From Erodium maritimum (lineage: Eukaryota > Streptophyta > Magnoliopsida > Geraniales > Geraniaceae), in NCBI GenBank assembly GCA_963921825.1, contig OY997591.1, positions 15,371,515 to 15,435,514 of the forward strand: a stretch of DNA of 64,000 bases, given 5' to 3'. Shown piece by piece: positions 26,121 through 45,604 of the stretch. The translations under genes were made by a program, and so were the position numbers. Every line of letters begins with the position of its first letter. Positions within the stretch are counted from its first letter, which is position 1. The notes under the pieces were generated by a model. That model was given only the letters and a program-made list of their open reading frames with translations, was not told where the DNA came from and did no database searches.

Positions 26121-26729
26121 GTCTGAGCCAGCTCCCTTCGTCTTCCCTTAACTTCATCTCCACAACCTTAGGTCCTTAAACCACCATGGCTTAGCTTCAA
26201 AACAACATAATCCTACTAGTTTCAATCAACAACAACAAAGGGAAACTTCAATTTAAACACCCAAGCTCCAATTTATCAATTCCCCCAATACTCAAAGTTA
26301 GGGTTTCCTCAATTTCTTCCCCAAAACCACCAAATTCCTCCATTTCTAATCAATTCCACTATGGATTCAACTATTCCCACAAGACCCACTCCATTTCTAC
26401 CCAATCCAACAAAAACCCACATCTTAAATCCATCCAAAGATGAAGGGGTTGGTTGCTTACCTTTGGAAATGAAGAGAGTTGGAGAAGTTTTGGTGGTAGA
26501 AATCAAAGGAACAAGCTTCTTCTTCCTTTTCTTCTTCTTTTATTCTTCTTCTTCTTTTTCAATGGAGGCTCAACACCTCTCTCTCTCTCTAGTGATTTTC
26601 GGCCAAGGCTAGGAAATGAGCTGATTTTTGCTCACATGTGGCCTTTAACCTAAAGAGGAAAGGTCCAAATGCCCCTTTAAGCCAAATCTTTTTTTTTGTA
26701 AAAAGGTAGGGACAAAAGTGACTTTCTCA

Positions 26730-28632
26730 ACAAATGTGTGTAGTAAACTCGATAGATCTTATAGAGCACCAACATGACTCTCTCTGCTAAAGTTGCTAGC
26801 TGGAAAACAGGTTCTCGCCGGACTCAAGACCGTTTGTCTTTCTTTGCGTTTGGGACTAACTTGCTTGCCTTGTATCAAGCTTATGTAGGCATTGAAGGTG
26901 GCTGTAGTACGTGCAAAATCAAATCCACAGCAAGGAAGCAGAGCTTGAAAGGCGATGGTGGTCCGACAAAGGTTGCAACTGCTACGGTCAAGCCGAGGAA
27001 ACCAAGGAGAGTGCCTAGTGCTGGTCCGATCGGAGAGTTTTTTTCCTCGCCGGAAAATACCAATACAACACAGTTGGTAAGGGAGGTTCTCGTTTCCGAT
27101 CAGGTTGAGAAACAGTCCAAGGTTGCAACCAAACCGGTGAAAAAGGTTGGGAATGATTGTGAGATTTTCTTGTATAACCTGCCATGGGGGACGACTGCGG
27201 ATAAGATTCGCCATTCTTTGCAGCCCTTCGATGAAGTGAAGTCAGTCTCAGTAGCAAAAAAGGCAAATCGCAAGGAACGGTATTTTGGGTTCGCTGAATT
27301 TTCGTCCCCGGAGTCGGCTTCTCAGGCAATTGAGACCCTTAACGGCTTTAAATATAACGGGTATAAGTTGTTCGTTGCCCTAGCTTGGCCGGGTTCAGGT
27401 GACAATCGCGTCTCAGCACCAGCGACGTCCGATCACGAAAAACAGAGCATGCTCGTATCGAAGCAGAGCAGCTCTTCTGGTGCGCTTCCTGAAGCTCTGC
27501 GTGCTCCCGGATCTCAGTCTGCGAATGCTGGAGTCTCACCCAGGGTGGAGGAAGGGAACGCGGCAAGGTTCCGTGAGATTGACACTGTGCCCTCGACGGA
27601 GGTATTCGGGACTGGGTCGGCGGTGGAGGCGGCGAAGCTGCATCCGGATTCACGGGAGTCATTGATTCGTTTGGATACGCATTTGATTTCAGATAAATTA
27701 GTTAGAGATACGCAGGATCCTGTCCATTTTGGTCGCGATTTGGTTAATCGCGAAACTGGTGCGATTTCCGATTTGATTCCTGCATCATCTTCGCGTGAGG
27801 ATGGACCACGGCCCAATTTTGAAGCCCAAGTTGAGGGGACCCAATTTGAGGAGGTGGGCCAACAGTCCACAGGTGTTTCAGGCCCAGGTGTTCAGAACGC
27901 AGCCCACGATCCAAGTCTGTTTGACGTTTTTAAACGTATCAGAACAGATTTGGCTTCTAGTGGGCGAGTGGTTTTAAGTCCGTTTAAGGATGAGACCGTG
28001 TCAGGTTCGCAAGCCCAAGAAACATGTAGGAAATACGTTACTCAAGTGGAAGAAACTTATGTGGACCACCCGTGGAAAGACATCCTCCTGAGTCCAAAAA
28101 GTATCCCCGCTGAGGTTCCGAGGAAACGTGGTCGTCCAAAAAAAGGACAGCCAAAAAAGACTGCTCCCCCAGTTGTTTTTTATCAGACAAGAGCTAAAAC
28201 TTCGTCTGACAAAGGGGGCCAAGCGAGAAGCCTCACAATCGACATTGCTAAGCAAAGTAAATATGGAGAATGGAGCTTTAGTAAGAAAACAGTGAAAAGG
28301 GTTGTTGCCCATTTCCCAGTTTTTGAATCCCCACAACGTGCTGAGGTTGTGGAGGGTGGAGAGCTTAGCGAGGACGAGGTTAACCCGGAATGGAGTTCTC
28401 ATTCAACTCCTATTTCGGTCTCTAACCGATTTCTTTGCTTGTTTTCGGACAAGAAGTAGGCAAGGAGGGCGGTGCTCCGATTAGTTTACTTTCTTGTTCT
28501 AGTTTTGGTTTTTAGTATTGTTATTTGTGTCTGTATCGGTTGGGGAAAAAGGTCCTTTTCAGGATTGTTTTTCTCGCCTCGTTTTACTTTTTGTAGAACG
28601 TTTGCTTAATAAATTTTCGCTTATAAAAAAAA
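26730..28632 (+). mobile_element. R1: intact ORF1-only non-LTR (half-LINE) element
   Basis: Inserted in E1 with a 16-bp TSD AAAAGTGACTTTCTCA (26714-26729, repeated at 28629-28644, overlapping the A tail). About 1.9 kb, comprising a 44-base leader, a single 561-codon ORF, and a 170-base 3'UTR ending TTTTCGCTTATAAAAAAAA. Endonuclease and reverse transcriptase are absent, and no remnant of ORF2 is seen after the stop. The long TSD, A tail and lack of terminal repeats show LINE-type target-primed insertion. Confidence 0.85.
26774..28459 (+). CDS. RRM- and AT-hook-containing ORF1-like protein of element R1
   Basis: 561 residues, uninterrupted. The N-terminal block LSFFAFGTNLLALYQAYVGI (residues 21-40) is shared with elements R2 and R3. 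An RRM spans about 128-205, with RNP2 IFLYNL at 131-136 and RNP1 RYFGFAEF at 169-176. A low-complexity middle follows, then RKRGRPKKGQPKK at 450-462, an AT-hook-like RGRPKK core, and PVVFYQTRAK. RRM-type ORF1 proteins occur in a class of plant LINEs, where they probably bind the element's RNA. The AT-hook could bind AT-rich DNA. No DUF4283 region is evident, unlike the ORF1 at 42.2-43.9 kb. An intact frame suggests recent insertion; expression is unknown. It could alternatively be annotated as a host RRM gene, but the TSD argues against this. Confidence 0.8.
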   Translation: MTLSAKVASWKTGSRRTQDRLSFFAFGTNLLALYQAYVGIEGGCSTCKIKSTARKQSLKGDGGPTKVATATVKPRKPRRVPSAGPIGEFFSSPENTNTTQLVREVLVSDQVEKQSKVATKPVKKVGNDCEIFLYNLPWGTTADKIRHSLQPFDEVKSVSVAKKANRKERYFGFAEFSSPESASQAIETLNGFKYNGYKLFVALAWPGSGDNRVSAPATSDHEKQSMLVSKQSSSSGALPEALRAPGSQSANAGVSPRVEEGNAARFREIDTVPSTEVFGTGSAVEAAKLHPDSRESLIRLDTHLISDKLVRDTQDPVHFGRDLVNRETGAISDLIPASSSREDGPRPNFEAQVEGTQFEEVGQQSTGVSGPGVQNAAHDPSLFDVFKRIRTDLASSGRVVLSPFKDETVSGSQAQETCRKYVTQVEETYVDHPWKDILLSPKSIPAEVPRKRGRPKKGQPKKTAPPVVFYQTRAKTSSDKGGQARSLTIDIAKQSKYGEWSFSKKTVKRVVAHFPVFESPQRAEVVEGGELSEDEVNPEWSSHSTPISVSNRFLCLFSDKK

Positions 28633-29338
28633 GTGACTTTCTCACCTTCCTTTTCTCTCCTCTATGGACTTAGGGACAAGTGTCCATGTGGGGTCCATCT
28701 CCACTCATAGATATCTCAGCCCAATTTAATTAATCCGGTTAAACCACACTTTGACCCCGTTTGACCCGAAATTGACTTTTTCGCAAAAACACTTATTTGA
28801 AAAGAAATGACCCAACTAAGCTAACTGTAACGACGACTAAGCTTTTTGGGTCCCGGATAGGTCTTGAATGACTCCCGTAGTCGTCGGTTGACTTTTTCGG
28901 CAAAAAGTCAACTCTTCCCGATTTCCACCGGTTTGACCGGTGTTGACCGAAGACGATTCTTACATTTAGTGTTGATAAAACCAGAGTAAAGTGTTGATAA
29001 AAGCAGTGTAAAATGTTCATAAAAATTACCGAGATATAATTTCTTTTTAAATCATCCCTGAAATAATTTACTTTTATCTTACTTTAAAACATATTCACCA
29101 CTTATCTTGATAGAAATCCCTTGAAAAAAACAAAGATATGGAGCAAGTTTGAAGCCAATCGGAATTCAAACGAAGCGGAAAAAATTAAATCATGTTTATT
29201 TTTGAAAAATGAGGTGATAAACCTAGTGTCCAATGTTGATAAAATCAGTGTAAAGTGTTGATAAAAATTACCCAGATATGTTTTTTTTTAAATCAGCCCC
29301 AAAATAATTGTTTTTTTCGTGCTTCAAAGTATATTCAT

Positions 29339-31367
29339 TTTTTTTATAAGCGTTAAATTTTTATTAAAGAACATTCTCCAAGGAGGAAAATGTCAAATCA
29401 AACCAAAACGATTACAAAAACTTTAGAAAGGAGTAGAAGGGAGGATGTCCCTAACAAAGAAAAGCACCCAACAAAAGCAAGCCACCAGGTCCTACTCTTC
29501 CTCGTACCACTCGTTATCCGAAGACATCGGCTCGCAGGGAGCCTTATGAGCAAAAGCCCGATGCTTGGATCTAGTACTGTGAGCACGAGGGACGTCTGGA
29601 GGGGTCAAATGGGGATTAGACCGTCCCTTGCGAGACTTAGTCTTGAGGGCTTCATCCAACCACCCATCGAAAGACTGCAAACGATCTATAGCCCCTTGAG
29701 ACACGTTCTGAATGGGTGGAAACTTCTCCCAAAAGTAACGGTGCCCTTGATTCCCTTTTGTACCTCCAAGTGTGATTTGGGTTTTTCAGTAACATAATCC
29801 GATAAATGCTTGGGAACCCGACTCAAACGTTTCGGAGGTTTGAGGAGGGCATCTTTCCATGGCTCGACCTGAACCCCGGAAGATCCACACTCTCCTCCAT
29901 CCTTAGCCGATCCCATGATCCAAGCCTCTTGTACCCCGCAAGAAACCTCAACCATAGGTACCCCCGACTTAGACGTCTTGTCTACTGGACAGTCTTGGGC
30001 TACCAAACCCGAAACAAGGCCAGCATCATTAAAACCCTCCTTTGGGCTTGCTGTCAAAAGGCCCACCACCTCTTGTCCATCTACACCAGCAATGAGTGGG
30101 CTCAGAACACCCAGCCCAATCGCATGCCCATCCTTTTATGCGTCCAACAGTGCGTCGTCATCCTCGTGCGATTCTCGCTCAGCAGAATCAGAATCAACCT
30201 TATTCTCGAACTGATGGCGCCTGACTGATTCAAAATTGCAGCTTGATTTTTGAAATCAGCCTCGAGAGTAATGGAGCAAATCACTCCCGATACGATTCGC
30301 CGAGATTCGAAATCCCCAGTCGCCTCCATCGATTGAACGACCGGAGTTCCACCAGCAACCGGAGTTCCAACGACCGGAGTTCCACCAGAAACCGGAGTTC
30401 CAACGACCGGAGTTCCAACGACGCTGGTTGACCTCGCCTGCGAACGGAGCTTCGGAGACTCGTTTGTAGCATCAGGAACAGAGCTATGTTTATGGGTAGC
30501 GAAAATAGAGCATATGCTCTGTTTTCCCCCATCAACGGAGAATATCTCTGGCAATGTTGTCCTCTGGGTCCGGCAAGGAGTTACACTCTCCAACACGCCT
30601 CCGGTTACCTTCTGCATCTGATCGTTTCCGTTCAGCTCCGATGAATTAATATCTTCACCCAAGCTCAAACCCGTTTGCAAACCTAAAATAGGGGCCTTTC
30701 GAATGTCTCGTTTTCAGGCAATTGCAACGAGGAGAATGTGTCCATTTAGCTTTAAACCATTCAAACTACTCACAGCGTCAGATGCATCTGTGGTAGATGA
30801 AAACTTGACAAATCCGAAAAAGCGCCCTCTCTTTGAACGTTTCAGAAGGGTGAGATCGACGATTGTACCAAAACTGCTAAAGACATTCCTAAACCAGGCC
30901 TCAGAAGTCTCATATGGTAGATTGGATACGAAAACCTCATAAGCGTTGAGTTCCTTCTGAAACTTTCCAATGTAACTGCGACCTCCTCCTCTAGTCGTGA
31001 CATGCTGTTTCAGGCTCAACAAATCGCCCTGTGACCGTGGCTGTTCCACTGGGACAACATCACCACCAACCCTAATCTTCGAAACTAACCCAACCGCCAG
31101 ATTCGATGGAGCTACAACCTTCGTTTAGGTTGTACCAGACCCAGAACCCCGTTCATCGTCTCGGCCTTGGAAGTTGCGCGATCCTTAGATTTGCTTACCT
31201 TGGTATGATCAGATTTAGCCCAGGACTTGGCATCTCTAGAACCGTTGAAGATCTTACAATAAGAATCGTAAGAGGAAAATAACACCGTACAAAAATCAGA
31301 AAATAGAAGAGCCATTGATCTATGTTGGTGAAGGTGGTTCAGTTGAGAGCATTTTCTTCTCATCCAA
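29339..31367 (-). pseudogene. R2: ORF1-only non-LTR element, decayed
   Basis: Minus-strand insertion with a perfect 17-bp TSD CTTCAAAGTATATTCAT (29322-29338 and 31368-31384). The 3' end on the minus strand reads AACGCTTATAAAAA, as in R1. Broken frames give MALLFSDFCTVLFSSYDSYC with KIFNGSRDAKSW (31.31 kb), then YEVFVSNLPYETSEAWFRNV and GRFFGFVKFSS (RRM, 30.95-30.75 kb), a (V)GTPV minisatellite, and WKDALLKPPKRLSRVPK (29.85 kb), matching the order in R1. Frameshifts and stops separate these blocks. No endonuclease or reverse transcriptase is present. Confidence 0.8.
30336..30431 (-). repeat. 15-bp minisatellite in the R2 ORF
   Basis: Repeats of ACCGGAGTTCCA(A/C)(C/G)(A/G) on the plus strand encode a GTPV(V/S/A) repeat on the minus strand, about six copies. 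It is absent from the other elements. Confidence 0.75.
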
Positions 31368-31384
31368 CTTCAAAGTATATTCAT

Positions 31385-31905
31385 GACTGATCTTGATAGA
31401 AATCCCTTGGAAAAAAAATATTGGCGCAAGTTTGGAGCCAATCAGAGTTCAAATGAAGCGGAAAAAATTAAATTTGTGAATTAGTAAAAAAAATATATGA
31501 TAGTTTTACTAAAAAACTCATACAATTTATCAAAAAAGTGTTGTTTTTTTCAGTCAACAACTCAATTGTATCACATGCATCCATTTATGAAATAAATGAC
31601 TTGGATTGGTTCACATAGTTTTTACGTTAAGAGATGGTTTTTATTTGATTTCTTCACATAATTATGCAGCTAGAAATTAATTATTATTTTTTTATCTTTC
31701 GCATACCAGTATTGAAGAAATCAACTCCTATTTTATAAAAACAGTGGAGTCATTACTCTTCAATATATTTGTTAATTAGATTCCCATTAAAAAAATATAC
31801 TTCACATTTCCCACCAAAAAATATAGTGCATGTTTCCCACATGGGTGAGAAACGCACATCTTTCCTGAAAACAGTGCTCAAAAAGTCTTGTCTGAGCCGA
31901 AATTG
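31385..31905. other. AT-rich DNA upstream of the BAHD gene, no gene seen
   Basis: Contains the right end of the outer repeat (to ~31660) and then ~300 bases that should hold the BAHD promoter. No clear TATA box could be singled out among many AT runs. Confidence 0.4.
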
Positions 31906-31958
31906 GAGTGAAGAGCCATAACCATACCCGGCAAAGCAAGAATTGCTTGTCTTCTCCG

Positions 31959-33311
31959 ATGGCTCCATTTCAAAAAGTCAAACTTGTAGAGCATTCCAAG
32001 GTCTCCCCACCGCCTGGTTCAGTCCCTTCCACCGCACTCCCTCTCACCTTCTTCGACCTCCCATGGCTTCTCTTCCCGCCAAACCAACCCCTCTTCTTCT
32101 TCCGCTTCCCTCACCCCACCTCCCACTTCACTGCCAATATCCTCCCCAACCTCAAGCGCTCCCTCTCCCTCACCCTCCAACACTTCTTCCCCCTCGCCGG
32201 AAACCTCCTCGCTCCGCCCCCGCCGGCTAACCCCCTTCTCCTCTACACCGACGGCGACTCCGTTTCCCTCACCGTCTCCGAGTCCTCCTCCGACTACCAC
32301 CACCTCTCCGGCCACCACCCCAGGCTCGCCGCCGATTTCCACCCCCTCGTCCCTCCTCTCGTTGCCGACCATACAAATCCGACTTTACTTCCGGTTCTGG
32401 CCGTGAAGGTTACCATCTTCCCCGGCTCCGGCGTCTCCGTCGGGTTCTCGTACCGGAACGTGGCGGCCGACGCGAGGACCTTTGACCGCTTCCTGAAATT
32501 GTGGATGTCGGTTACCAAATGTGGGTGTGTTCCCAAGGAGTTGGTGCCCACGCACGATAGGCGTTCGATGAAAGCTCCCAAGGGGATCGAACAAACTTTG
32601 CTGCATCAGTGGTGGGCCCTCAAGCAGTTCCCGGAACGGCCGATCGACACCGCCACGGTCAGAGCCACGTTCGTGGTGGGTCGACCCGAGATGGAGAATA
32701 TCAGGCGATTGGTCCTGTCAGGGTCAACCCGACCCCATTCGTCCGCATCCTTGTTTTTGTCCCCTTACGTGTTGACGTGCGCACTTTTGTGGGTTTGTTT
32801 GGTCAAAGCTCGAGCCGTTGAGTTGACCGGAGACGAGGCGCTCTGCTTTGGGTTCATTGCGGGTGGGATTCACAGGCTGGACTATCCGGTGCCGACCAGT
32901 TACTTGGGCAATTGCGTCGCGTTTGGGAGGTCGGTGGTCGGTAGAGAGGAGCTCACCGGAGAGAATGGGGTGTTCTTTGCGGCGAGGTCGATTGGGGAGA
33001 AGGTGAAGGAGCTGAACGGGGATGTTGTTGGAGGGGCAGAGGAGTGGGTTTCAGCTTGGAATGTGATGGTCGGGTCGGATCTCCATGTGGTGGTTTCCGG
33101 GTCGCCGAAAGTGGGATTGTACGGGTTGGATTTCGGGTGGGGTAGGCCGGAGAAGATGGAGGATGTGTCTATTGATGCCACCGGTGCAGTTTGGCTGGCT
33201 CAGAGTCGAAGCGTGGAAGGTGGTATAGAGATAGGGATGTCTCTCCCAAGACCCGTTATGGACATTTTCACTTGTCTTTTTACCCAAGGATTGGAAGATT
33301 CAGACCACTGA
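31959..33311 (+). CDS. BAHD acyltransferase (anthocyanin/phenolic-glucoside malonyltransferase-like) with altered catalytic motif
   Basis: 450 residues, single exon; I chose the ATG at 31959 because MAPFQKVKLVEHSKVSPPPG aligns with family N-termini, although the frame opens at 31908. Family features: FFDLPWL (31-37), LTLQHFFPLAGN (71-82), SYLGNC, SPYVLTCALLW, and YGLDFGWGRPEKM with DFGWG at 391-395. BAHD enzymes transfer acyl groups from CoA thioesters; the DFGWG variant and overall pattern suit the clade that malonylates or aromatically acylates flavonoid and phenolic glucosides in the cytosol. The HxxxD catalytic motif reads NVAAD (167-171): the general-base His is Asn, codon AAC at 32457-32459, one base from CAC. 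The rest of the ORF is intact with strong coding bias, so it is either newly inactivated or altered in activity. No intron. Confidence 0.85.
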   Translation: MAPFQKVKLVEHSKVSPPPGSVPSTALPLTFFDLPWLLFPPNQPLFFFRFPHPTSHFTANILPNLKRSLSLTLQHFFPLAGNLLAPPPPANPLLLYTDGDSVSLTVSESSSDYHHLSGHHPRLAADFHPLVPPLVADHTNPTLLPVLAVKVTIFPGSGVSVGFSYRNVAADARTFDRFLKLWMSVTKCGCVPKELVPTHDRRSMKAPKGIEQTLLHQWWALKQFPERPIDTATVRATFVVGRPEMENIRRLVLSGSTRPHSSASLFLSPYVLTCALLWVCLVKARAVELTGDEALCFGFIAGGIHRLDYPVPTSYLGNCVAFGRSVVGREELTGENGVFFAARSIGEKVKELNGDVVGGAEEWVSAWNVMVGSDLHVVVSGSPKVGLYGLDFGWGRPEKMEDVSIDATGAVWLAQSRSVEGGIEIGMSLPRPVMDIFTCLFTQGLEDSDH

Positions 33312-34267
33312 GTCTGATCCAATACATGGATGGACCCAGCACCCAGCTCAGGCTGTGGCTACCGTCTTTTGTGCTTAATCTTTAATATCTTGTATATGAG
33401 CGTCTGTAGCCGACATCTTCCTGATCAGTAATGTTGGCTGCATTTATGTTCTGTCAAATTGTTTGTAGGATCGTTGGTGTTTTAGAACCGGTAAAAAACT
33501 TAAACTCTTTACATATCTAATACGAACATTTGTACAGCGGTAACGTTGACCAGTATGTTCAATTCAACTCGCCAACGCTAATCAGTATTATTGTTATATG
33601 AATGGTCGACAGATTCAGTGACTTGTGTAGCATTTGAGCGTTGGAGTGAGTCCTAGACCTCAACGACTCTGCAAAACCCAGACAAGTTGTCATGTCATGT
33701 TGACACCACGCTCCCGTAGTGATGTGTGACAATTCGGCATTGGTTTTTGATCGGTCATCACAGCTACAACGTCGAGTCCAAAAGATTAGAAACATTTTTT
33801 TTACAAATTGACTTATAAATAGGTAGTCCAATTTACCAACATCACCGCACTCAACTCTCATGCCTTCACATCTATCAACTCTCTCATTTCGTTCAAGATG
33901 TCGAACTACGAGTCCCCAGGATCCGGTGACTTTGTGGTCGTTGTTTGAGTCTAAACGATTGACCTCTATCATCCAATGACTGCGCGGCGGCCTCTTATTT
34001 CCAACGATCGGCCGTCTAGAACCAGCCGATACCAATTTTCTAATGCACACGTCCTATCCACCTATGCCCTCCAAATATCCAGATGACAGAATGTAGATTA
34101 ACCAAATCTCTTTTCTCCTCGCATAGGCATTGAGCTATCGTTTGTAGACTTGTCAGGATCAGGATCGGATGTGCCAGAGACGTAAACACATATACCATCA
34201 TTCAACAACGGAGTTGGGCCATCAGGAGTCTCGTCGTCCACAATCAACATTGACGAGGGGCAACTAG
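33312..34267. other. 3' flank of the BAHD gene and intergenic DNA
   Basis: No poly(A) consensus beyond AT-rich motifs near 33380-33400. The 163-aa minus frame at 33559-34050 shows no recognisable domain and is probably chance. Confidence 0.35.
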
Positions 34268-34360
34268 TTGAGCCTATTCAGATTTTCCTTGTGCACTACT
34301 TATCAAAAAAAAATTCCCTGTGCACCAAATCATACGGGTCGCACTGATGGTGTTGTAGGT

Positions 34361-34505
34361 TGCCAACCTGGACGCATCCATAGAGGTGGAGGTAAAGGTA
34401 GATATGACGGTTGGAGGATGCGTTGGACTAACGAAGAAGATTTACGCTTGGTTGCATGTTGGTTGCACAACTCCTTCGATTCATTTCTAGAAAGCAACAA
34501 GACAT
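34361..34505 (+). pseudogene. Harbinger-associated Myb/SANT-like ORF, 5' part
   Basis: Encodes GGGKGRYDGWRMRWTNEEDL then RLVACWLHNSFDSFLESNKT. The WTNEEDLRLVxxWLxxSxD pattern is that of the Myb/SANT-like (trihelix-type) protein that accompanies PIF/Harbinger transposases, also seen in NAM-associated/glutathione-transferase-T3-like annotations. It is interrupted exactly at 34505 by element R3 and resumes at 36505-36512. Confidence 0.7.
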
Positions 34506-36504
34506 TAATGGCTCTACACCGCCGGCTAAGTCTACAAGAACACAAATGATTTACCTCCTAATAAATAGAATGGTGGAACTGCTCTCTTTTTCTTCCTTCG
34601 GATCTAACATGATCTCCGTTTATGAAGAGTACTGCAAAATTGTTTTAGGATCGCGTTCTGGTTCTCGTCATCCTAAAGGAAATAGAGGCAGCAAGAGATC
34701 GGCGTTCTCGAAGTCAGCTCTGCTTGTCACTGAAGCGAAGAAGGGAGGGCTTGGTCCCGGGACCTCTGCTACTGTCCTGGTAGCTCCAGTGAAGGAGAAG
34801 GCGACGGAATCTTCGGATCCACAGAGGGCCAAAATTTCGAGGACAGCTCGTCGGTCAGGTAAGAAGATCTCATCGGATAAACCTTTGGGTTATAAGGTAC
34901 AAGACGATGAAACTTTTTTTTTTTGAAACCTACCACCGGAGGCTTCGGAGAAGTGGGTAAAGAAAGTCTTCGGCTCTTACGGTACTATCGTGTCTGCTTC
35001 CGTCTCAAAGCGTCATAATCGCAATGGTCGGTTTTTTGGGTTTATTCGTTTTAAATCTAAATATGACGCTGCAAACTTTGTTGAAGGGTTAAATGGGTTC
35101 ACAGTCGATGGGCATACCCTTTTTGTCGCAGCCGCTCGTCGGAACTTACAGAAGGAAGGGAACTCTGAGATTTTGTTGAGAAAATAGAGCACTTGCTCTG
35201 TTTCCGAATTACAAAAACAGAACTTACCTTTGGTTGATGGGTTGAAGCAGAGCAATGGAGAAGTGGGTGTAGGTGGGAACAGTGGTTCGGAATTGGTGAA
35301 TAAGGAACAATCAGTTGGTTCCGGCGACTCACCGGAAAAGTATTCTCGAGGCGTTATTGATCGACGCGTTGTCAACCCGTAGGATCTAGAATTGATACGT
35401 GATCTCGTCAATCATGGTATTCCACTGATTTCGAAATCAAATCAGAGAGATTTAAGGGATTCTCTTGAATCGATCCCATCTGCTTCAGATTACGGCAATC
35501 ACTGCGTGCGTGAAGACGTTGCCGTTGTGACTGACTTGGGCTCAATAAACGTTTCTATGGAACAGATTGGGCCTATGGCTGGGCCATCTGATTCAGCTCA
35601 ATTAGTTCCCCCTCTCTCAGATCCGGCTGTAAATTGCGGTGTGAATTTGGCTGGACCTACGACGCTTAATGGGATTCGCTTGTCAACCCAACAAGTTGAA
35701 ACTGTTCCCTCCTTGTCTGTGCCTGCTCTAGTAGCAACAACATATGGGGTTGATACAGTTAGTCGGCCCAATTAGGGCTATAGTAATTTTGAGGAGGATT
35801 TTTTCTCCCCTGAGGACTCTTCCATCCCACTCGCTCCTTCTATGGATTTCTTTGCATGGGCTTTGAACCGGTTGAGGACCCAGTGGGTAGTCAAAGAAAA
35901 TATTCCGGAAAGAGAGGTAGAAGACTAAAGGGAACTAAGAAGTCCCCAGTAGTTGTCTTCCATCAAGCGAAGTCCAAGGAGCGTTCTCGGAGCAGGGATA
36001 GAGCGCTCAGACACTTAGAGTGGTCCAAATTGAAACTAGCTGCGAAAACGAGTATCATCCAAGGCTCGCTCACCAAGGAATGCATAGATTTTGGAACGGA
36101 CGATGAGGAAGAAGGTCTTGATGAGGGGATTGGGGAGATCGCTCCTGACTCCCAATCACCTTCCCCATCCTCCTTTGAGGGTGGTGCTCCGTCTCTGTTT
36201 CGTAAACTTTACACCATGTCTGATTCAGCGGGTATTTAATCTGTTGGCTTGGTTTTCTTCAGACTGGTGTGGGTGTTTAGACAAAGCTACACGCCTGTGA
36301 GACGTCTTCCTCTACGACCCAAGCTTCTTGTCTTGTTAGTGTCAGTTTAAGCTTATTTTTTTTAAGCTTCTGTGGTTTTTTTCTTTCTATTTTTTAAGGT
36401 TCTCAAGTTGATCCGCACATTCTTGAGGGCCGTATCTTCTTGCAGCTTGGATTTTTATCTGTAAAATTCAAGTTCCTCAATAAAATCATCACTTATAAAT
36501 AAAA
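34506..36504 (+). pseudogene. R3: ORF1-only non-LTR element, decayed
   Basis: It splits the Myb-like ORF; the direct repeat AAGACAT lies at 34499-34505 and 36505-36511, and the 3' end is AATAAAATCATCACTTATAAATAAAAAA. Frames encode MVELLSFSSFGSNMISVYEE with YCKIVLGSR (cf. R2), then after a T11 slippage-type frameshift at ~34914, an RRM with GRFFGFIRFKSKYDAANFVE, and later GTKKSPVVVFHQAKSKERSR, matching the C-terminal block of R1 (KTAPPVVFYQTRAK). At least four stops are present. No ORF2 remnant. Confidence 0.8.
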
Positions 36505-37330
36505 AAGACATACCATGGTTTTTGGCAACAAATTTCCCGTGAATACAACAACGGCTCGGTAGTGCAATTTCACGATGATAAATAGTTGAAGGATCGTTGG
36601 TCGAAACAAAGCGGATTGGTGAAGTTGTTCAATGGTTATTTCAAGTAGGTCAGAAGACTTTATGCCAGTGGGATCTCGGACAACTAGTTGTACGAAAAGA
36701 CCTTGATTATATACGCATGGAATGAGAAACCTTCTACTTTTGACGGACGACATTGTTGGCAAGCGGTTCGCAACTAAACTAAGTAGAATGAGGAACACGA
36801 TGATGACCAAGGACCGAATAGGACACGTAGGGATGAAGAGGGAGGATACACAACGCCCGAGAACACGTCATTGAGAGAGGGAGGATCACATTTTGGACCA
36901 TGGATGCTTGATCGATATTTTAACCCCTTACAAGGGTCACCATTCGTGTTTTATAATTGATCATCATCGGTTGGATCTCCAAACACACTTGGGAGCGCTT
37001 TCATGGACAATGCATTTTCACCGGATGCAGGTTTCTTTCCTCATAACGGATATGGTTCGGGTTCGCACGGAATTGGCCTTCCGAACCTTGTCACCTACCT
37101 CCACCTACCCAACAACTTCTAATGGGACAAAAGGCCGTCAAGAGGAAAGGGAAGGCCATCTTGAACGCACCTAACTATTGACCAGTTGCACCTATGGAGG
37201 CTAACAAGATGGATTTGGGAAGAATGCGGATGGATCACGAAGTTTTGGAGGAGAGTAGGAATAGGACCTGACGCAATGATCTTTTCAAACGCTTGGATGA
37301 GCTTGACGTGGTCGACATTAATGCAATGTT
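36505..37330 (+). pseudogene. Harbinger-associated Myb/SANT-like ORF, 3' part
   Basis: Continues the 34361 frame: KTYHGFWQQISREYNNGS, then LKDRWSKQSGLVKLFNGYFK and later FDGRHCWQAVRN, and near the end MDLGRMRMDHEVLEESRN and LFKRLDELDVVDINAMFVT. These follow the family order (FWxRIxxxYN, LxxRWxxxxxxVxxFNGxY, FxFxHCW). Several stops and frame changes after residue DDK show that the gene was also decaying outside the R3 insertion. Confidence 0.7.
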
Positions 37331-37785: not shown

Positions 37786-38650
37786 TCAAACAAACAAATC
37801 AAATTCATTTGTTCTGATTTGATTTAATTTGATTACGATATTTAATTATAATATTATGTAATATTATTTTCCTTATAATAGTCTTGCAATCTCCTATAAA
37901 TAGGAGTAGTGATTCTTCAATAAAATAATTCAACGCATTTCAGTTCATATTTTACATGGTATCAGAGCTCCCGGTTTTGATCCTTGGGAGGCTCTTATGA
38001 ATTCGTAGCTTTGCCCACTTGTTAACTTATGGTTCTAACAAGTGGGCAGGGCCTTTGAAAGGTGTTTTTATTTTATTTCATAGTTTTATTTTGCTTCCTC
38101 ATCTTCGTAATCAACCACAACAGTTTTCCACCTTCTATGATGTTTACAATGCCGATCACGAGACGAGATGCTATTTGCACCGTCAGCCACAAGATGAGAT
38201 GATGTTTGCACCGTCGGTCACGAGACGAGATGCCCTTTGCACCGTCGGCCCCGAGACGAGATGCCTTTTGCACCGTCGGCCCCAAGACGGGTAGCCGTTT
38301 GCACCGTCGGCCACGAGACGAGTAGCCGTTTTCACCGTTGGCCACGAGACGAGATGCCGTTTGCACCGTCGACCCCGAGACGAGTAGCCGTTTGCACCAT
38401 CCATCAAAGGCACTATACATGATCGTTTTATAATCTTCTTTTCAAGTTGAGCATTTTGAATCTCCATGCTTCAACTTGAGGGGGAGTATTCAAACAAATA
38501 AATCAAATTGATTTGTTCTGATTTGATTACGATATTTAATTATAATATTATGTAATATTAGTTTCCTTGTAATAGTCTTGTAATCTCCTATAAATAGGAG
38601 TAGTGATTCTTCAATAAAATAATTCAACGCATTTCAGTTCATATTTTACA
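37786..38650 (+). mobile_element. TRIM-type miniature LTR retrotransposon
   Basis: Two near-identical LTRs, 37786-37956 and 38490-38650, each ending ...GCATTTCAGTTCATATTTTACA and carrying CTCCTATAAATAGGAG (a TATA box within a 16-bp perfect palindrome). Directly after the first LTR is TGGTATCAGAGCTCC (37957-37971), the initiator-Met tRNA primer-binding site; before the second is a polypurine tract GAGGGGGAG (38478-38486). The LTRs differ by a 9-bp indel and a few substitutions, so insertion is not very recent. The ~530-bp interior has no gag-pol and carries a 31-bp tandem array. TSDs were not identified. Confidence 0.8.
38165..38405 (+). repeat. 31-bp tandem array inside the TRIM
   Basis: About eight units of the form TTTGCACCGTCGG(C/T)C(A/C)CGAG followed by ACGAGATGCC or ACGAGTAGCC. 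As 31 is not a multiple of three, no frame repeats cleanly; the 61-115-aa frames here are artefacts. Confidence 0.85.
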
Positions 38651-38955
38651 CATTCGGTGACTAAACAGTTACCTGGAAAACCGAAAGCTAGGACGACTAG
38701 ATAATGGAAAAACAATGACAATCTTGTTCTGTATTCAAGTTTGAGTGACGTCAGTTTCTGGGCAAATCAATATTTTACAGATTGAATTTTCACTGGTTTT
38801 TCTAAAGTAAAAAAATCAAATGGCACAATGTAACCACAGCTCTTAACCATCGGTTTTGTAAATTAAAACAGAACAACTAAATTCCAATGGATGGTCCATA
38901 TGACAAGTGAAGCATGTGTGTAGAATCCAAAATAAAATAACCTATCAAACTGTGC

Positions 38956-41254
38956 TCACCAGCCCTTGCCTATGAGCCACAACCAGTCAAGTGTCACCCC
39001 GGCGAATATGCCTCCTAACAGGAACATCACAAGTATATTTCCCAATGCATTTTGCTCCGGCCCCTGCACGATTGAGAGAGAGAGCGGAGTACCATTAGTT
39101 TTGTGGCAAGCAATATCTTTGAATACATCAAAGTTTAGTAGGTTGACATTTTACAAGTACGATTTCGAGAACGTACCCTGTAACCTTTTGGTGCTGCAGT
39201 AAAGACGCAGACAGTGAGATAACCGTTGGTGAGTCCTAGGAAAGATGTTAGCAGTATCATCCAACCCTGGTCGCCATATTTGGCTGTGAAATAAAACGCT
39301 GGTACAAGACAAAAACGAGCCAGGACAGCGACCATAAGCCCTCTTCGGGACTCCAACTTCAAGGATTTCACTAAGGGGATGTATCTTCCAATAAGGTCGA
39401 ACGCATTATACATTGCTATCAGAACAAGTGCATACCTAAGAAGTCAAATGTTAAGGTACGATTCCCACACAGAAAGAGCTTTGATAGTAGAAACTCAGCT
39501 ATGATGTGAACAAATAACATATACATACCAAGTGCCTAAACTGTGTGCTCCGGTGTCTTCAGACAAGAATCCAGGGAAAATTGATAGTGTCAGTGAATAT
39601 ATCAAAAACATATCAAGCGCGTAATCCTTGTTCTCAAGTAACAACTCTTTGATGCTCAACCTCTCCGTGTGATTTGGATCTTCCTCAGCCTAGATGAAAT
39701 TCAACAGTCTTAAAATGGAATGAATGAATGATGATTGGTAATGCTTGATCGTGTGGTCAGGGTAAAAAAAAAACTTACTCCTGGCACCAGTTGGATACCC
39801 ACAGCAGCAAGGTCAGCTGAGACGGTTTTGGATCCTTCAGAGGCTGCCTTTGAGCGATAGTACTTGACAATTGGTAATTTTGGAAAGGTATATGCATAGA
39901 GAAGGACGCAAAGCAGCTCAAAGAAACTAGTGATGCCAAAGAACAAAACTGTAGCAGACAAAACAGAATGTAATTAGTCTTCAGGAATCACATTATGAAT
40001 GTGTCCAAAGTGCTATTCCTCTCTGTTGCAATGAAATAGTATTCTAAAACCCGTCATAAGGGTATTTTAAGCTCTCCTACTCCTAGAATATGAAGATGCA
40101 AGTTAACGACAAGAGCAATAAGAAATTACAGAAAATGGAAACATACGGGCTCCCTTGCGAAGACCATCTTGTGACTGTTTAAAAGCTGCTTTCGTAATTA
40201 ACCTCAAACCAGAGGTTATGGCCCCTGATGCAGCAGAACCGGCTAGGAAAGACTGAAAGAAGATAACCAGTAAGCAGGCAATGTTAAAATAGATATGAAG
40301 GACAGATAGAAAACTTACTTGGATGAGTGCAGGGTCCATGAAGGAGAGATCTCCAACCATTCCACCCTGCACATGAGCATCGGCTATTCCAAATGCACCG
40401 CTTATTGCGCATATTCCTATGAACGCTCCAAGTCCACCTCTTCCAGATGTTGCCAAATCCAACTTGCACATCACAAACACAAAGCAATCAAAAAACCCTC
40501 AAAAGTTGAGGAACAAGAGAAATGTGAATTCATTGACCCTTACCACTAGAATCAAAAGCGAACTTAGGAAGAAAAGGGCGTATCCTAGTAGGTTGCGGCG
40601 CCTAGTATTCAAAATCGCTTCGTGGTAGGCCAGTATAGCAAGTGTTACAAAAGCAAATGGTTGATACACGAGAGTAAGAACCCTTGATGGATGATAATTC
40701 TGGAAAAGGAGTCAAGAAATGTAATGTATTTCTACAAGAGGTAATTGCAAATAAATACTCAAATGAATTGTTGATTCATAAACAACTATCATAAACTCAA
40801 ATGAGACTTGTTTATGATCCAAATACTAATCATATTCATGGGTATGAAGAAAAGAAAAGAAAAAAGTCAAAAGTACCGGGAATAAGTTGACATAGTAGTC
40901 TTCAATAGTGAGCATGCTATTCCATGAGAAAAGGCATCCGTTGCCAAGGAGCCAACATACGACCATTGCAGCGAACTTGCCCTTTAAATCATCAATCATG
41001 ACAGACAAGGGTTTAATAATAATAATAATGATAATGTCTCGTAATTGATTAATTAAACTGAACAAGGTCTAATAATACAAACCTCATGCTTGGCCCGAGG
41101 CTCAATTGGATTAGAGCTTCCCGGTGATGATTCTATTCCAACGGTTCCTGAAACCAAACTTGTTACTTCTCTACACTTTTCTTTAACGAATCATGACTCG
41201 GTAACAAGAATTTTATGAAGAAAAAAGAAACAGACAAGAGAGCTTACTCTCCAT
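38956..41254 (-). CDS. ENT: Equilibrative nucleoside transporter, tandem copy 1
   Basis: Minus-strand exons: 41248-41254 (ATGGAGA), 41083-41147, 40877-40981, 40544-40699, 40319-40462, 40147-40252, 39779-39948, 39529-39689, 39177-39435, 38956-39063. All introns are GT-AG and phases join without error, giving 426 residues, about the family's length. Landmarks: GKFAAMVVCWLLGNGCLFSW, NSMLTIEDYYVNLFP, YHPSRVLTLVYQPFA, DPALIQ, SFLAGSAASGAITSGLRLIT, NAFDLIGRYIPL, GDQGWMILLTSFLGLTNGYL and the tail GGIFAGVTLDWLWLIGKGW. Plant ENTs have 11 membrane helices and import nucleosides, mostly with protons, at the plasma membrane. It is 73-80% identical by eye to the copy at 45.6 kb; a LINE and a MITE separate them. 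The start lies in a tiny exon unlike that of copy 2, so the N-terminus (MERTVGIESSPG) is less certain than the rest. Confidence 0.87.
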
Positions 41255-41655
41255 GTGAAGATACTTGGCTTCGGATCTGAGGATTTGGCAGTTGAAATTA
41301 GTTTCGAAAATTCACTCTCATGTATTTGTCCGATTTTATTTAGGGATATGTATGTATTTGAATTCGAAGTGGAGTACAACTTGGAAAACAATTCTAAGTG
41401 AAGTGGAAGTGTTGCACTAGGTAGTTTCTTGACGTGCCCTCGCCTTTTTACTCGCAAATGCAAAGATGCTTCAACCGCTTTCTTTGGCCCATCAAAGAGA
41501 ATTGGATCGACTACAATTAAATAAGTAATAATCGTTTGTAAAAAAAAAAGATTGATAAGCCAAATTTTATTACCAATCCTTAACTTATAAGAAACAAACA
41601 CAGAGATACCCGAAAAACGGATTTCCTCAGAGCTTACACAAAGTTTCCCATCAAA

Positions 41656-44330
41656 TTTTTTTTTTTGATAAGTGATTTTATTATTAAAATAGGTAACCAA
41701 GACGGAAACCTGTAACAAAGGCCTCTTGAACAAGGCTACAAACTGCAAATAAAACAAACAGTAAACATAAAGAACAGACAAATAAAACTCCCCTGCAGCA
41801 GCTCTCATGCACCTTTGCCTTCCCTGGTAAAAGATCTCAGAGCTAACGTTCGAAAAACACAGATGACACGTCAGGCTTATCATCTGTAATAAACTATAAG
41901 CCCGGGTCCTTAAACCGATAAAAACCTGTCAACAAGTCTTTCCACCATGCTGAACCACCCAAGAACCTTGACTCTACGATCCAACCCATGCACAAGGAAC
42001 AAATCACTCATGTACCAATCCCCAAATTCGCCAAGAACAGCTACAAAGGAAGGCACTTCTTCTCTTTTTGATTCCTGAAAAAAAACAGTGAGTTGCCCAG
42101 ACAGGGCTACCCTGAATCTCCGTCTCTTCTATACGGCATTCATCCCCCTCACAATCCAAGAGATGAATTTCACCATAAAATTTGACTAAAAAGGAGGGGA
42201 AGTAGGGTGGGACTCCCCCACTTCTACTCCGTCACTCGAATACAGGTCGTCAGAATCGTCCTGAAGTTCAGGATCAACAGAATCACCCAACTCAAAATCA
42301 AGTGCTTCAATTTGATCTGTCGCTTCTGGATGACCCGTTAAAAGTTTCTGACTGGCCTTAATGAGTTTCCACTTTCTCTCTCGATCAGCATACTCCTTAC
42401 TCAAGGAACATCTCCTTGTAGCATAAGAGCGATACACAAAAGTAGGTTTACCTGGGTTAAGCAGAGTTCGACTGACAGAACAACCGACCCTGTTTGCTTG
42501 AGGTCCACGCAAAAGGCTCGGTGGGCTTAAACTACTCTGGCCCTGGGAGTCTGCAACCTTACTGGCCGAGGGAGATGACAGACAAAGCTTTCCTTTATAC
42601 TTCAACTTGGCAGGCGGTGGGAACTGGACTATGTCATTCAGACCAAGAGTTTCCGTGGACTCCAAAGATTGACCTTTCAACTCAATAGCAGACCCAAAAA
42701 CTGGGATATCTAATGTCATGCGAGCTTCGATAGGGTAATGTTTACCCTCCAACTTCAAAAAACAATCGAAAGAATGGTCATGAGATTTCAGTTTCAGCAG
42801 GAAATAATTGAAATCTAATGACAATGAGGTCTCATCACGCAAGGACAGAATAAAGGTTCCCATTGAGTTTCCCAAATCTCTGAACGTCGACATACACCAA
42901 CCCAAAACAGGGATACCCGATACCTTCACCCAAGAAAAACAACCCTCCATATTAAGCCATTCCTTAGCCTTGTCAAACATTAGAAATGAAGTGGAGCACC
43001 AATTCCATTTGGAGTTCAATACGTTTGAAAGCGTGTCCTGATCCGAGGATAATAACAAAAAAATCATGTTGCCCAAGTAACGGAACTGTAAATCCAAGGG
43101 CTCTTCTGAATTAATACGATTTCGTAAATCTGAAATAGAGAAATCGTCTCTCGCCACCCCAAATAAACTCGCTTCAGACCAAGGTGAAAGGTAGCTGGTG
43201 GTGGTTCCTGACACCTCTGTTTTACGTGTCGAAGTCTCCACTGGATTCAAACGTTTATCATCTAACTTGGTTTTTGGCATCCAAGCCTGTTTAACCGCTG
43301 GCTTACCCAACCTTTTGCTCAGTTTCTCCGGCCACGCAAAAGGCATGAAAATTTTGTGATCGTTCCAAACTGCTCCATTACAAGCCTTTACCAACAATTT
43401 CCCTTCAGCCTTCGATCTCACCGATACAAACCCGAAGAAGCGTCCACCAGCATTTTGACGTTTGCAGACAAAAACTTTGACCACAGGAGCGAATTGATCT
43501 AACCAAGCTCTCAGCTTCACCCTGTTTGAATCATACGGAAGATTGCAAATGAATAACTTACACAACTCACTAGATGCTAACGAGGGACTTGTCGGATCTG
43601 CATAGTCTCTGATCGAGTTTGGAAACGGAATTGATGCAGGCTCGTTGACTGATTTCTCTGTAGGTTCTCCACCGCGTTTGATCGAACTATGTAACGGTGT
43701 CTGAGCCGATTTCTCCAATCGACAGATTACCGATGAGAGTTTGGGAACTCTAAAGAGCTTACCTTCGATCAATCTCTCGTGATAATCACCAGATGTCTCA
43801 GAGCCCATTGCCGTCCCCACTTGCTTCGGAGTCGTCTGCCTTCTTTTGCGCGCCGAGTTAGGAATCCATAGGGAATCCTTTAACAACATAGACAGAGAAC
43901 CGTCAATCTAACAACCTAGGCAGAGAACCTTCAATCGGCGTCCAGGAACCCCAGAAGATGCCTTGATCGGACGGCTCCAGCAAGGTCAACAGCTCCGGCA
44001 TCGACCGAAACCTATCGGAAGGAATCGCAATTCCCCCTCTGCCCCAAGATCTGCGAACCGCGGATGTCGAACCGGGCCCCAAACTCGGCGGAGATGCAGA
44101 GAACCACCGGCGCTACCACCACCGGCGATCGGAGAAGAAGGGTCGAGTGACACAATCCCCAGAGCAACGGACGGGGTTCGGCCGGAAATCACAAGAGGAC
44201 CGAGAAATCCCCTGCGCTAGACACCGTCTTCCCCTCACCCGGCCACTGGGCACCACTCGCACGCCGCCTGAGATGGCGACGGCGGCCACTGGTTTCGAAA
44301 ACGAAACCTAACGCATATATAAAGCCTACA
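41656..44330 (-). mobile_element. R4: LINE with intact ORF1 and deleted ORF2
   Basis: Minus strand: GC-rich leader (from about 44330 to 43890), ORF1 (43889-42186), then nine bases and ATG at 42176 opening MVKFISWIVRGMNAV before a stop. ISWxVRGxN is the start of the APE-type endonuclease of plant LINE ORF2, so ORF2 begins in the normal place but is cut after 15 codons. About 500 bases of 3' sequence follow and end AATAAAATCACTTATCAAAAAAAAAA. It lies between the two ENT genes, upstream of copy 1. A 5' boundary and TSD were not identified. Confidence 0.75.
42186..43889 (-). CDS. LINE ORF1 protein with RRM and DUF4283-like regions
   Basis: 567 residues, uninterrupted, ATG at 43889. RRM at about 109-185: RNP2 LFICNL at 112-117, RNP1 RFFGFVSV at 150-157. 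A DUF4283-like region about 265-380 has LQFRYLGNMIFLLLSSDQD, WFSWVKV-like FSWVKVSGIPVLGW, and ends in FLLKLKSHDHSFDCFLKLEG. The C-terminus is acidic (LQDDSDDLYSSDG). This is the layout of RRM-type (BNR-like) plant LINE ORF1 proteins, thought to chaperone the element RNA in the ribonucleoprotein. Because its ORF2 is lost, any mobility would need a partner. A host-gene reading is unlikely given the following endonuclease start and A tail. Confidence 0.8.
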   Translation of the reverse strand: MLLKDSLWIPNSARKRRQTTPKQVGTAMGSETSGDYHERLIEGKLFRVPKLSSVICRLEKSAQTPLHSSIKRGGEPTEKSVNEPASIPFPNSIRDYADPTSPSLASSELCKLFICNLPYDSNRVKLRAWLDQFAPVVKVFVCKRQNAGGRFFGFVSVRSKAEGKLLVKACNGAVWNDHKIFMPFAWPEKLSKRLGKPAVKQAWMPKTKLDDKRLNPVETSTRKTEVSGTTTSYLSPWSEASLFGVARDDFSISDLRNRINSEEPLDLQFRYLGNMIFLLLSSDQDTLSNVLNSKWNWCSTSFLMFDKAKEWLNMEGCFSWVKVSGIPVLGWCMSTFRDLGNSMGTFILSLRDETSLSLDFNYFLLKLKSHDHSFDCFLKLEGKHYPIEARMTLDIPVFGSAIELKGQSLESTETLGLNDIVQFPPPAKLKYKGKLCLSSPSASKVADSQGQSSLSPPSLLRGPQANRVGCSVSRTLLNPGKPTFVYRSYATRRCSLSKEYADRERKWKLIKASQKLLTGHPEATDQIEALDFELGDSVDPELQDDSDDLYSSDGVEVGESHPTSPPF

Positions 44331-44773
44331 AAATGACAACAAACACCAACAACCACTAAGGCCCGGAGCCAGCGCCACACCTAATATCTAGTCTAAACTA
44401 TAATGTTGACTCATATCTCTATATGCATGATCAGTAAAACACGATTCTCCAATAAATCATCACACTATTATTCTGATGATGTCATTGTACTTGTTTCTTG
44501 CTGTTCTGATGATGTCGAGCCGAGGAAAGCATTAATCATATATGAAACAACAAGAAAACTATATATGCATGCCATTGATATATATTGGTTTATTGTTAAG
44601 GATATGGATATTTTTGTTGTTCATTATCGAAATAATGTTAAATAAGAAATTTTGAAAGTTCTAAATGGTTAAATAAGAAATTTTAAAAGTCAACATACTT
44701 AATTGAGAAAGATGTAAAAATCAGTATATTTTGATTCGTATCTAATTCAGGTGATGAGATTGAATATTTATAA

Positions 44774-45145
44774 GGGTAAATTATGTTGACATACCCCGTA
44801 TTATACGTGTTTAACGGATATATACTCTAAAGTTATTTCGTAACGAAAACATACTCTGAACTAACACCTAGTAACAATATCCCCCTTCCATCCATTTGTA
44901 GGGTTAGATTTAGGTTTAGAGAGAGATTTAGGGTTGGATTTAGGGTTGAAGTTGCATTTAGCATTGTAACACTACGGATAGTTTCAGAATTTCTGAAAAA
45001 ATGAATAATAAATGGACGGAAAAATGAATGAAATAGGGGATGTTGTTACTAAGTGTTAGTTCATGGTATGTTTTCGTTACGAAATAACTTTAGGGAATTT
45101 ATTTGTTAAACGCGTATAGTACGGGTTTATCAACGTAATTTACCC
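44774..45145. mobile_element. Mutator-type MITE with telomere-like core repeats
   Basis: A 372-bp element with inverted ends GGGTAAATTA(T/C)GTTGA pairing for about 100 bases, and an imperfect 9-bp direct repeat TATTTATAA/TACTCATAA (44765-44773, 45146-45154; 7 of 9). The centre has several TTTAGGGTT-like units (44900-44960). No coding capacity. Confidence 0.75.
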
Positions 45146-45604
45146 TACTCATAACAAAAGTTGGGTTGATGTGGGGTGAATTTCTAGCAAAATAAATCAT
45201 GGGAAGGTTCTTTTAGAAATTTATCAGTTGGTGTGAACACGAAAACCTTTGGAACTGAACCGGAAAGTGTGGGTTTGGATCGGCCCACAGAACACAAGTT
45301 GTAGTTATTCCCAGAAAACATGTAATCCAATTCTCAATTCCAACAAGGTTGTGCTACATTCAAGTTACTACAATCTAAGCACACAACAGAGTAGATACAG
45401 TTTTCAGGGCAAATATTCAATCAATAGTATTTCCACTGATTTTCCTTCTACTGTAAGAGAATCAAATCACAACATCACCACAGCTGCTTATGCATTTATT
45501 TATGCACACAACTTAACAATTGGATTGTGAATTGAAACAGAACATGTGAAAACAGCTAAATTCCAGTCAAATAATAGAACCAATCCAACTTGTTCAACCA
45601 TTGC

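Follow-up and report, generated by a model that had tools for sequence, protein, structure and literature searches.

HAL1 elements of mammals use the open reading frame 2 (ORF2) protein (ORF2p) of the long interspersed nuclear element (LINE) L1 in trans. They are non-autonomous and L1-derived, encode only the ORF1 protein (ORF1p) and have several independent origins, according to the accessible part of PMC5753468. Here we describe four elements, R1 to R4, in a 64,000-nucleotide stretch of the Erodium maritimum genome (the window; C4:15371515-15435514). We propose, with a probability of roughly 0.8, that they are non-autonomous retrotransposons without long terminal repeats (non-LTR) that encode only an ORF1 of the RNA recognition motif (RRM) type and are moved in trans by LINE ORF2p. 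As in HAL1, ORF1 is present without endonuclease or reverse transcriptase, and R1 and R4 have multiplied as families at different sites. The differences from HAL1 are the plant host, the RRM-type ORF1, a diverse lineage with many open frames, and the fact that no ORF2-bearing parent was found for R1 to R3. By this comparison, the R1 and R4 elements would work as HAL1 does.

Plant LINEs of the BNR type belong to the L1 clade and carry an RRM in ORF1. R1 to R4 share this RRM, and relatives of R4 also carry DUF4283, some of them with an endonuclease 12-16 nt downstream; unlike a full BNR-type LINE, however, R1 to R4 lack the endonuclease and reverse transcriptase of ORF2. A further parallel is one L1 lineage of grasses. 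Immediately before their 3' ends, its members and its short interspersed nuclear elements (SINEs) have a hairpin in which compensatory changes occur (Ohshima, PMC3747384, accessible part), and that study interprets it as indicating that the RNA end is specifically recognized. In maize and sorghum the SINEs that have this hairpin are non-coding, whereas the hairpin described below belongs to ORF1-coding elements and is accompanied by other motifs. The R1-type elements are not SINEs themselves, as they are ~1.9-2 kb long and protein-coding rather than short and non-coding. The non-autonomous types named in the accessible part of a review of plant transposable elements (PMC9033089) are LARD, TRIM, SMART, MITE, SNAC, MULE and SINEs, with no class of ORF1-only LINEs among them. 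No plant ORF1-only LINE was described in the titles and abstract openings found in our literature search, which covered the subscription literature thinly, and a named case may exist.

R1, R2 and R3 are composed as follows (window coordinates).

26714-26729, no strand: 5' target-site duplication of R1, AAAAGTGACTTTCTCA, 16 bp
26730-26773, plus strand: leader of R1, 44 nt, missing from empty sites
26774-28459, plus strand: ORF1 of R1, 561 amino acids (aa), intact, with a single RRM
27164-27370, plus strand: RRM_1 domain of R1 (Pfam, E = 5.3e-14)
28542-28575, plus strand: stem-loop 1 of the R1 3' untranslated region (3'UTR)
28580-28600, plus strand: 3' terminal stem-loop of R1
28608-28628, plus strand: AATAAA box, CGCTTAT and start of the A tail of R1
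28629-28644, no strand: 3' target-site duplication of R1, 16 bp
28961-29200, no strand: empty site within the window, a paralogue of the R2 target
29322-29338, no strand: 17-bp target-site duplication of R2, on the element's 3' side
29339-31367, minus strand: R2, ORF1-only element with a broken ORF1
29370-29394, minus strand: 3' terminal stem-loop of R2
30717-30950, minus strand: stretch of R2 holding RRM_1 (Pfam, E = 2.7e-18)
31368-31384, no strand: 17-bp target-site duplication of R2, on the element's 5' side
34499-34505, no strand: target-site duplication of R3, AAGACAT, 7 bp, weak
34506-36504, plus strand: R3, ORF1-only element, its ORF1 broken by stops
34930-35184, plus strand: stretch of R3 holding RRM_1 (Pfam, E = 8.1e-15)
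36446-36472, plus strand: 3' terminal stem-loop of R3, with a 7-nt loop
36505-36511, no strand: target-site duplication of R3, 3' side, 7 bp

A preliminary description of the window, made from the letters alone, had read R1 to R3 as discrete insertions that each encode an RRM protein and lack reverse transcriptase. This observation holds: Pfam places RRM_1 in all three, a three-motif scan found no reverse-transcriptase motif in the whole window, and no ORF2 start or remnant was seen after the ORF1 stop of R1, R2 or R3 in translations judged by eye. The duplications of 16, 17 and 7 bp it had given were found as well, that of R2 being exact over 17 bp and that of R3 weak. For R1, both flanks were joined with one copy of the site, without element or leader, and searched against the genome (763 Mb in 40 contigs, nine of them 62.6-158.6 Mb). 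An end-to-end match (within 3 nt) was obtained in 35 of 41 rows at 79-96% identity, with the best 40 of 1200 candidates scored, and R1's own locus split into query positions 1-90 and 75-181, an overlap of 16 bp. As these empty sites are uninterrupted without the leader, the leader belongs to the insertion. The joined flanks of R2 match the paralogue at 28961-29200 over 218 nt at 83%, with a single copy of the site and an uninterrupted junction. At their very 5' end the elements have an ATG and then a CTCT-like stretch; this ATG starts ORF1 in R1 and short upstream ORFs in R2 and R3.

The R1 DNA search gave 48 match rows (best 40 of 1874 first-look candidates scored), which include 11 other full-length contiguous copies at 78-93% identity. 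Thirteen aligned copies, R1 among them, are 79-98% identical to one another. Two of these, L020 and L021, lie on different chromosomes and are 97.9% identical, a divergence of ~1.5 million years if a rate of 7e-9 per site and year is assumed. The family members R1, L021 and L030 are unbroken. In the R1 protein search (111 rows joined into 77 loci, best 78 of 11,088 candidates scored), 26 of the 77 loci have an open ORF1, at 41-100% identity; a locus was called open if its matched part had no stop, its open frame was at least 500 aa and the query end was reached. In some of these 26 loci the match starts only at query residue 64-124. One R1-type copy (L027, C1:79471725-79475177) has query positions 518-931 duplicated head to tail, and a further 5'-truncated R1-like element of another subfamily (L045, 1-1103, plus strand) shows the same C-terminal block followed directly by the 3' end.

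A clear target-site duplication, counted at a score of at least 9, is present in 12 of 14 dissected copies versus 5 of 182 mismatched pairings used as background, and 38 of the 48 R1 rows are continuous across the stop, starting 60 nt or more within ORF1 and reaching the 3' end with no gap. The preliminary description's claim of replicating ORF1-only non-autonomous elements stands firmly for R1, while the relatives of R2 and R3 are fewer and mostly partial. We consider it well supported that the R1 lineage, and likewise the R4 lineage described below, consists of replicating ORF1-only non-autonomous LINE relatives.

The ORF1 of the R1 family is under purifying selection, as its pattern of substitutions shows. 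The ratio of nonsynonymous to synonymous substitution rates (dN/dS) is 0.35-0.79 over all 78 pairs in the family, and five control pairs gave 0.43-0.48 in frame versus 0.90-1.07 in the two other frames. Parsimony-informative sites number 92, 105 and 160 at codon positions 1, 2 and 3, of 535 each (p = 7.7e-7). The codon-position test was also significant for singletons (p = 0.03), for pairs of open copies (p = 0.017, 0.015 and 9e-5), and for fixed differences between subfamilies A and B (p = 0.02) and B and C (p = 0.002). Because the copies share their ORF1-to-3'UTR junction, this selection took place in lineages that were already ORF1-only, barring a source with ORF2, not seen here, from which copies continued to arise.

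R1, R2 and R3 are separate lineages, judging by how little their sequences share, and not the three copies of one family that had been proposed. In blastn, no match was found between R1, R2 and R3 at E 1e-3, the sole extra row being a palindromic piece of R2 against itself. Comparison by tblastx recovered the RRM and short blocks at 27-55% identity, and a repeat search gave only short ungapped likenesses (R2-R3, 51 nt at 73%; R1-R3, 26 nt at 85%). Some of the motifs cited in favor of a single family also needed correction: the N-terminal block given as LLFSFCTVLF reads LLFSDFCTVLF in R2, the C-terminal PVV-F/Y-Q block is present in R1 and R3 and was not seen in R2, and R3 ends in CACTTATAAATA rather than in the 3' end noted. 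The earlier interpretation is partly supported.

R2 and R3 are older relatives of the R1 kind. Their DNA searches yielded 59 and 50 match rows, respectively (best 40 of 515 and best 40 of 121 first-look candidates scored), and 25 of the R2 rows and 26 of the R3 rows cross the stop ungapped by the definition used for R1. The full-length R2 relatives L010 and L011 are matched in pieces over ~1.9 kb, with no space for an ORF2, and R2 and R3 rows that are split near the stop are interrupted by tens of nucleotides to ~460 nt, too short for an ORF2. One R3 relative (C1:46608296-46613059) has a gap of ~2.9 kb, located inside ORF1 and not at the stop. A reverse-transcriptase fragment beside L011 was considered as part of an R2-like element and rejected, as it lies on the opposite strand. 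When read by eye, the flanks of R3 (34361-34505 and 36505-36760) look like pieces of a single interrupted frame similar to a plant transposon-associated protein. Upstream of them, at 34297-34313, the 17-nt TACTTATCAAAAAAAAA stands between the near-identical copies CCTTGTGCAC and CCCTGTGCAC and appears to be a LINE insertion so extremely truncated at its 5' side that the 3' end alone is left.

The window holds a fourth element, R4, which the preliminary description had not listed and which is the one with a visible deletion origin.

41665 to ~44312, minus strand: R4, a half-LINE with ORF2 deleted; 5' end set where relatives start matching
42186-43889, minus strand: ORF1 of R4, 567 aa, intact, with RRM_1 (E = 6.8e-7) and DUF4283 (E = 3.7e-4, below the Pfam cut-off)
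41950-42176, minus strand: remnant of the start of the R4 ORF2, with stops; inner end approximate, set by eye

R4 consists of ORF1, the first part of ORF2 interrupted by stops, and then the 3' end, and its deletion junction is common to L050-L054 and L057. In L058, ~75 residues of the endonuclease are fused to what appears by eye to be the C-terminal region of ORF2; the R4 clade is derived from a LINE through loss of ORF2. A related group, L060 and L069-L071, has ORF1 together with a shorter remnant of ORF2. L069-L071 were examined as candidate autonomous ORF2-bearing elements and rejected, since they show only ORF1 and this short remnant. Of 13 relatives of R4 most are broken, and several keep long frames, with a maximum of 584 aa in L060. 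R4 and L071 differ with a dN/dS of 0.22 and a codon-position p of 2.5e-16, and inside the sister clade of R4 the codon-position test gave p = 0.02.

The origin of R4 shows that deletion of ORF2 does occur in RRM LINEs of this genome, and R1 to R3 might likewise be scattered internal deletions of surviving autonomous RRM LINEs, in which case the ORF1-only state would have arisen repeatedly and would not itself have been propagated. LINEs in which an R4-like ORF1 precedes an endonuclease do occur in the genome. The endonuclease piece of L058 was used as a query, and the 150 matches scored (of 5,389 candidates) were compared with the 77 loci of the R4 protein search (out of 9,969 candidates). At 13 of these 77 loci a listed endonuclease match lies at most 1 kb downstream; the distance is +12 to +16 nt in 12 cases and +402 in the remaining one. 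At C5:61691750-61693444, an open R4-like ORF1 (577 aa) is followed 16 nt downstream by an endonuclease in a 908-aa open frame. By contrast, none of the 77 R1-protein loci has a listed match within 6 kb downstream (Fisher p = 1.4e-4, on a list that favors the R4 lineage). As the list was ranked by likeness to R4, it may have missed a diverged ORF2 beside an R1-type ORF1. Scattered deletions would also sit poorly with the gap-free joining of ORF1 to the same 3'UTR in the R1 rows, and with the lack of any visible ORF2 remnant in R1 to R3. The preliminary description had named copies that carry ORF2 after the ORF1 stop and before the same 3'UTR as a finding that would speak for separate deletions; none were found among the visible rows, a result limited by one-sided R2 and R3 rows (see below), which could be ORF2-bearing. 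On balance, we find scattered deletion improbable and prefer replication of ORF1-only elements.

At their 3' ends the elements have AAUAA-(N)-CRCUUAU, or a variant of it, followed by A(n), and in most of them a stem-loop lies just upstream of the AAUAA box. The folding of 38 ends, from the window and fetched loci and including many close relatives of R1, was compared with 60 shuffles each by a custom swap method. The z-score was below -1.5 in 27 of the 38 ends, with a mean of -2.8. In separate folds of six 3' ends, the values were -2.9 for R1, -2.6 for R2, -3.2 for R3, -0.6 for R4, -3.9 for L045 and -2.9 for L071. In 15 hairpins with an 8-bp stem and a 5-nt loop (those of R3 and L045, with other loop sizes, were excluded), 109 of 120 pairs are standard, compared to a mean of 75 and a maximum of 96 in 2000 shufflings of the arms, and six of the eight stem pairs occur in forms altered on both sides. 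Six representative hairpins have 45 of 48 standard pairs, versus a maximum of 36 in 265 re-pairings. The stem-loop, AAUAA box and CRCUUAU-like tail, shared by most of the ends, suggest a common helper.

R1-type elements are intronless and have A tails and target-site duplications, as would also be expected if host RRM genes, one or several, had given rise to them as processed pseudogenes (retrocopies). A fixed 5' start and the stem-loop/AAUAA/CRCUUAU 3' end in unrelated subfamilies are difficult to reconcile with that origin, as are the 26 diverse open frames. Selection is moreover seen on changes shared by copies, and a host source that sheds dead copies would fit this only if the subfamilies had tracked the host gene. 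We therefore regard host retrocopies as very improbable.

ORF1-only elements mobilized in trans would require a source of ORF2p, and the genome has possible helpers. All 150 scored matches in a search for zf-RVT (of 12,902 loose candidates) were above the cut-off, in open frames of up to 1373 aa, and six stop-free endonuclease matches among the 150 scored sit in open frames of 1166-1235 aa. The 3' structure and these open ORF2 frames together suggest that LINE ORF2p acts on the elements in trans. The RNAs of R1 to R4 would end in the stem-loop, the AAUAA box, CRCUUAU or a variant, and a poly(A) tail; ORF2p from autonomous LINEs of the same genome would recognize this end and insert the RNA by target-primed reverse transcription. 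ORF1p may bind its own RNA in cis and be needed for propagation, and because of this need ORF1 would stay under selection without ORF2. In this scheme, the identity of the acting ORF2, the action of ORF1p in cis and the function of the 3' hairpin are inferred. HAL1 in mammals suggests that ORF1p acts mainly on its own RNA and that ORF2p can be shared; an independent plant case, with an RRM-type ORF1 under selection, would make this division between cis-acting ORF1p and trans-acting ORF2p look general for L1-clade elements.

Several observations weigh against the proposal of ORF1-only elements mobilized in trans. With respect to the insertions, L019 and L032 show no duplication above background, and the duplication of R3 is only 7 bp long. 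With respect to selection, fixed differences between R1 subfamilies A and C gave p = 0.15, to be counted together with the lower values for A-B and B-C; the test inside R4's own deletion clade was not significant (p = 0.20); and the selection seen between R4 and L071 may at least partly predate the loss of ORF2 if their two deletions were independent. With respect to ORF2, about seven R2 rows break off at 1883-1926, just beyond the stop at 1876, and lack a listed 3' piece. Four R3 rows that match the 3'UTR only (C1:114478647, C2:19781919, C9:14441581 and C6:17644196) start at 1728-1745, at or slightly past the stop at 1733, and lack a listed ORF1 piece. These one-sided rows could reflect diverged 3'UTRs or ORF1 ends, or ORF2-bearing elements that share that end; the four R3 places may thus be diverged relatives, or else ORF2-bearing LINEs with R3's 3' end, which would make them candidates for the helper. 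Only part of the candidates was scored, so that ORF2-bearing kin of the R1 to R3 kind may exist, and the ranking of the endonuclease list by R4 likeness counts here as well. With respect to the 3' end, 11 of the 38 ends have z-scores above -1.5, including R4 and several of its relatives, L013, L014 and L060, and three of the 11 (L033, L038 on the plus strand, and L056) have no hairpin. R4's own hairpin is weak, with z-scores of -0.6 and -0.4. The hairpins used for covariation were picked after folding, which biases the percentage of standard pairs upward, and the shared 3' end is established among ORF1-only types and not with any helper LINE.

The 5' ends of the R1-type copies are unusual. These copies match R1 only from its first ATG, from at most 6 nt before it, or from a few nucleotides inside, and all 12 copies whose target-site duplication is clear have their own distinct leader between the 5' duplication and this fixed ATG. 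Leader length is 44 nt in R1 and 9-107 nt in the eleven others (12 nt in L020), and no common leader was seen, even between the nearly identical L020 and L021. When the last 70 nt were compared, 9-mers shared beyond the ORF start occurred only in the pairs L021-L029 and L024-L025, with at least one partner lying in flank. In L022, a traced stretch of 79 nt is 99-100% identical to the interior of a high-copy repeat, its first nucleotide lying 2 nt within the duplication. L019 lacks a clear duplication; there, a 50-nt stretch that stops 4 nt short of the ATG is an exact match to the interior of another repeat. The 44-nt leader of R1 has no other match in the genome. A spliced or trans-spliced exon was considered as the usual source of leaders and rejected, as the source of the L019 stretch (L072) is an internal piece of a repeat that is not followed by GT, and the leader of L022 comes from inside a repeat and reads through an apparent intron end. 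The simplest reading is that reverse transcription reaches an RNA 5' end at or near the first AUG and is followed by a template switch or by joining to filler. To our knowledge, such a stretch on nearly every dissected full-length copy is unusual. Chimeras of mammalian LINE-1 with other RNAs are known (PMC13174262, accessible part).

The R1 to R3 protein may descend from a LINE ORF1, by loss of ORF2. An RRM gene could instead have acquired a LINE-like 3' end, giving a coding, SINE-like parasite of LINEs with its own RNA-binding protein. Profiles of R1-type and R4-type ORF1 align in the RRM alone (93 columns, in shallow alignments), Pfam recognizes the RRM alone in R1 and finds no DUF4283 in R1 or L021, and an R1 relative with ORF2 was not seen among the rows and loci scored, all of which would fit such an acquisition. 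The RRM, linker and short C-terminal block nevertheless follow in the same order in both types, and the 3' architecture resembles that of the LINE-derived R4 clade; with shallow alignments and fast-diverging ORF1 linkers, undetected homology is weak evidence for a separate origin. We consider acquisition by a non-LINE gene unlikely but a serious contender. In a more far-reaching form, which we hold to be rather unlikely, R1 to R3 would be an ancient and very diverse clade of coding retroposons that never had an ORF2, a selfish RRM gene joined to the 3'-end recognition of LINEs, spreading by means of an ORF1-like RNA-binding protein and a 3' hairpin, and supplied with a new 5' leader at almost every insertion; if true, this would be a class intermediate between SINEs and LINEs. 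A special likeness of the R1 RRM to poly(A)-binding protein was examined and rejected, as the high score is the sum of four RRMs at 3-26 bits each.

Outside of these elements, the window contains a tandem array with a 31-bp unit (~10 units, 38112-38421) and a BAHD-type transferase gene (Pfam Transferase), which agrees, as do the LINEs with zf-RVT, with a flowering-plant source. A multi-exon gene on the minus strand at 38945-46599 is present in two tandem copies ~6.65 kb apart, with pieces 77-89% identical; its frames resemble what we take to be an equilibrative nucleoside transporter, and R4 sits between the two copies.

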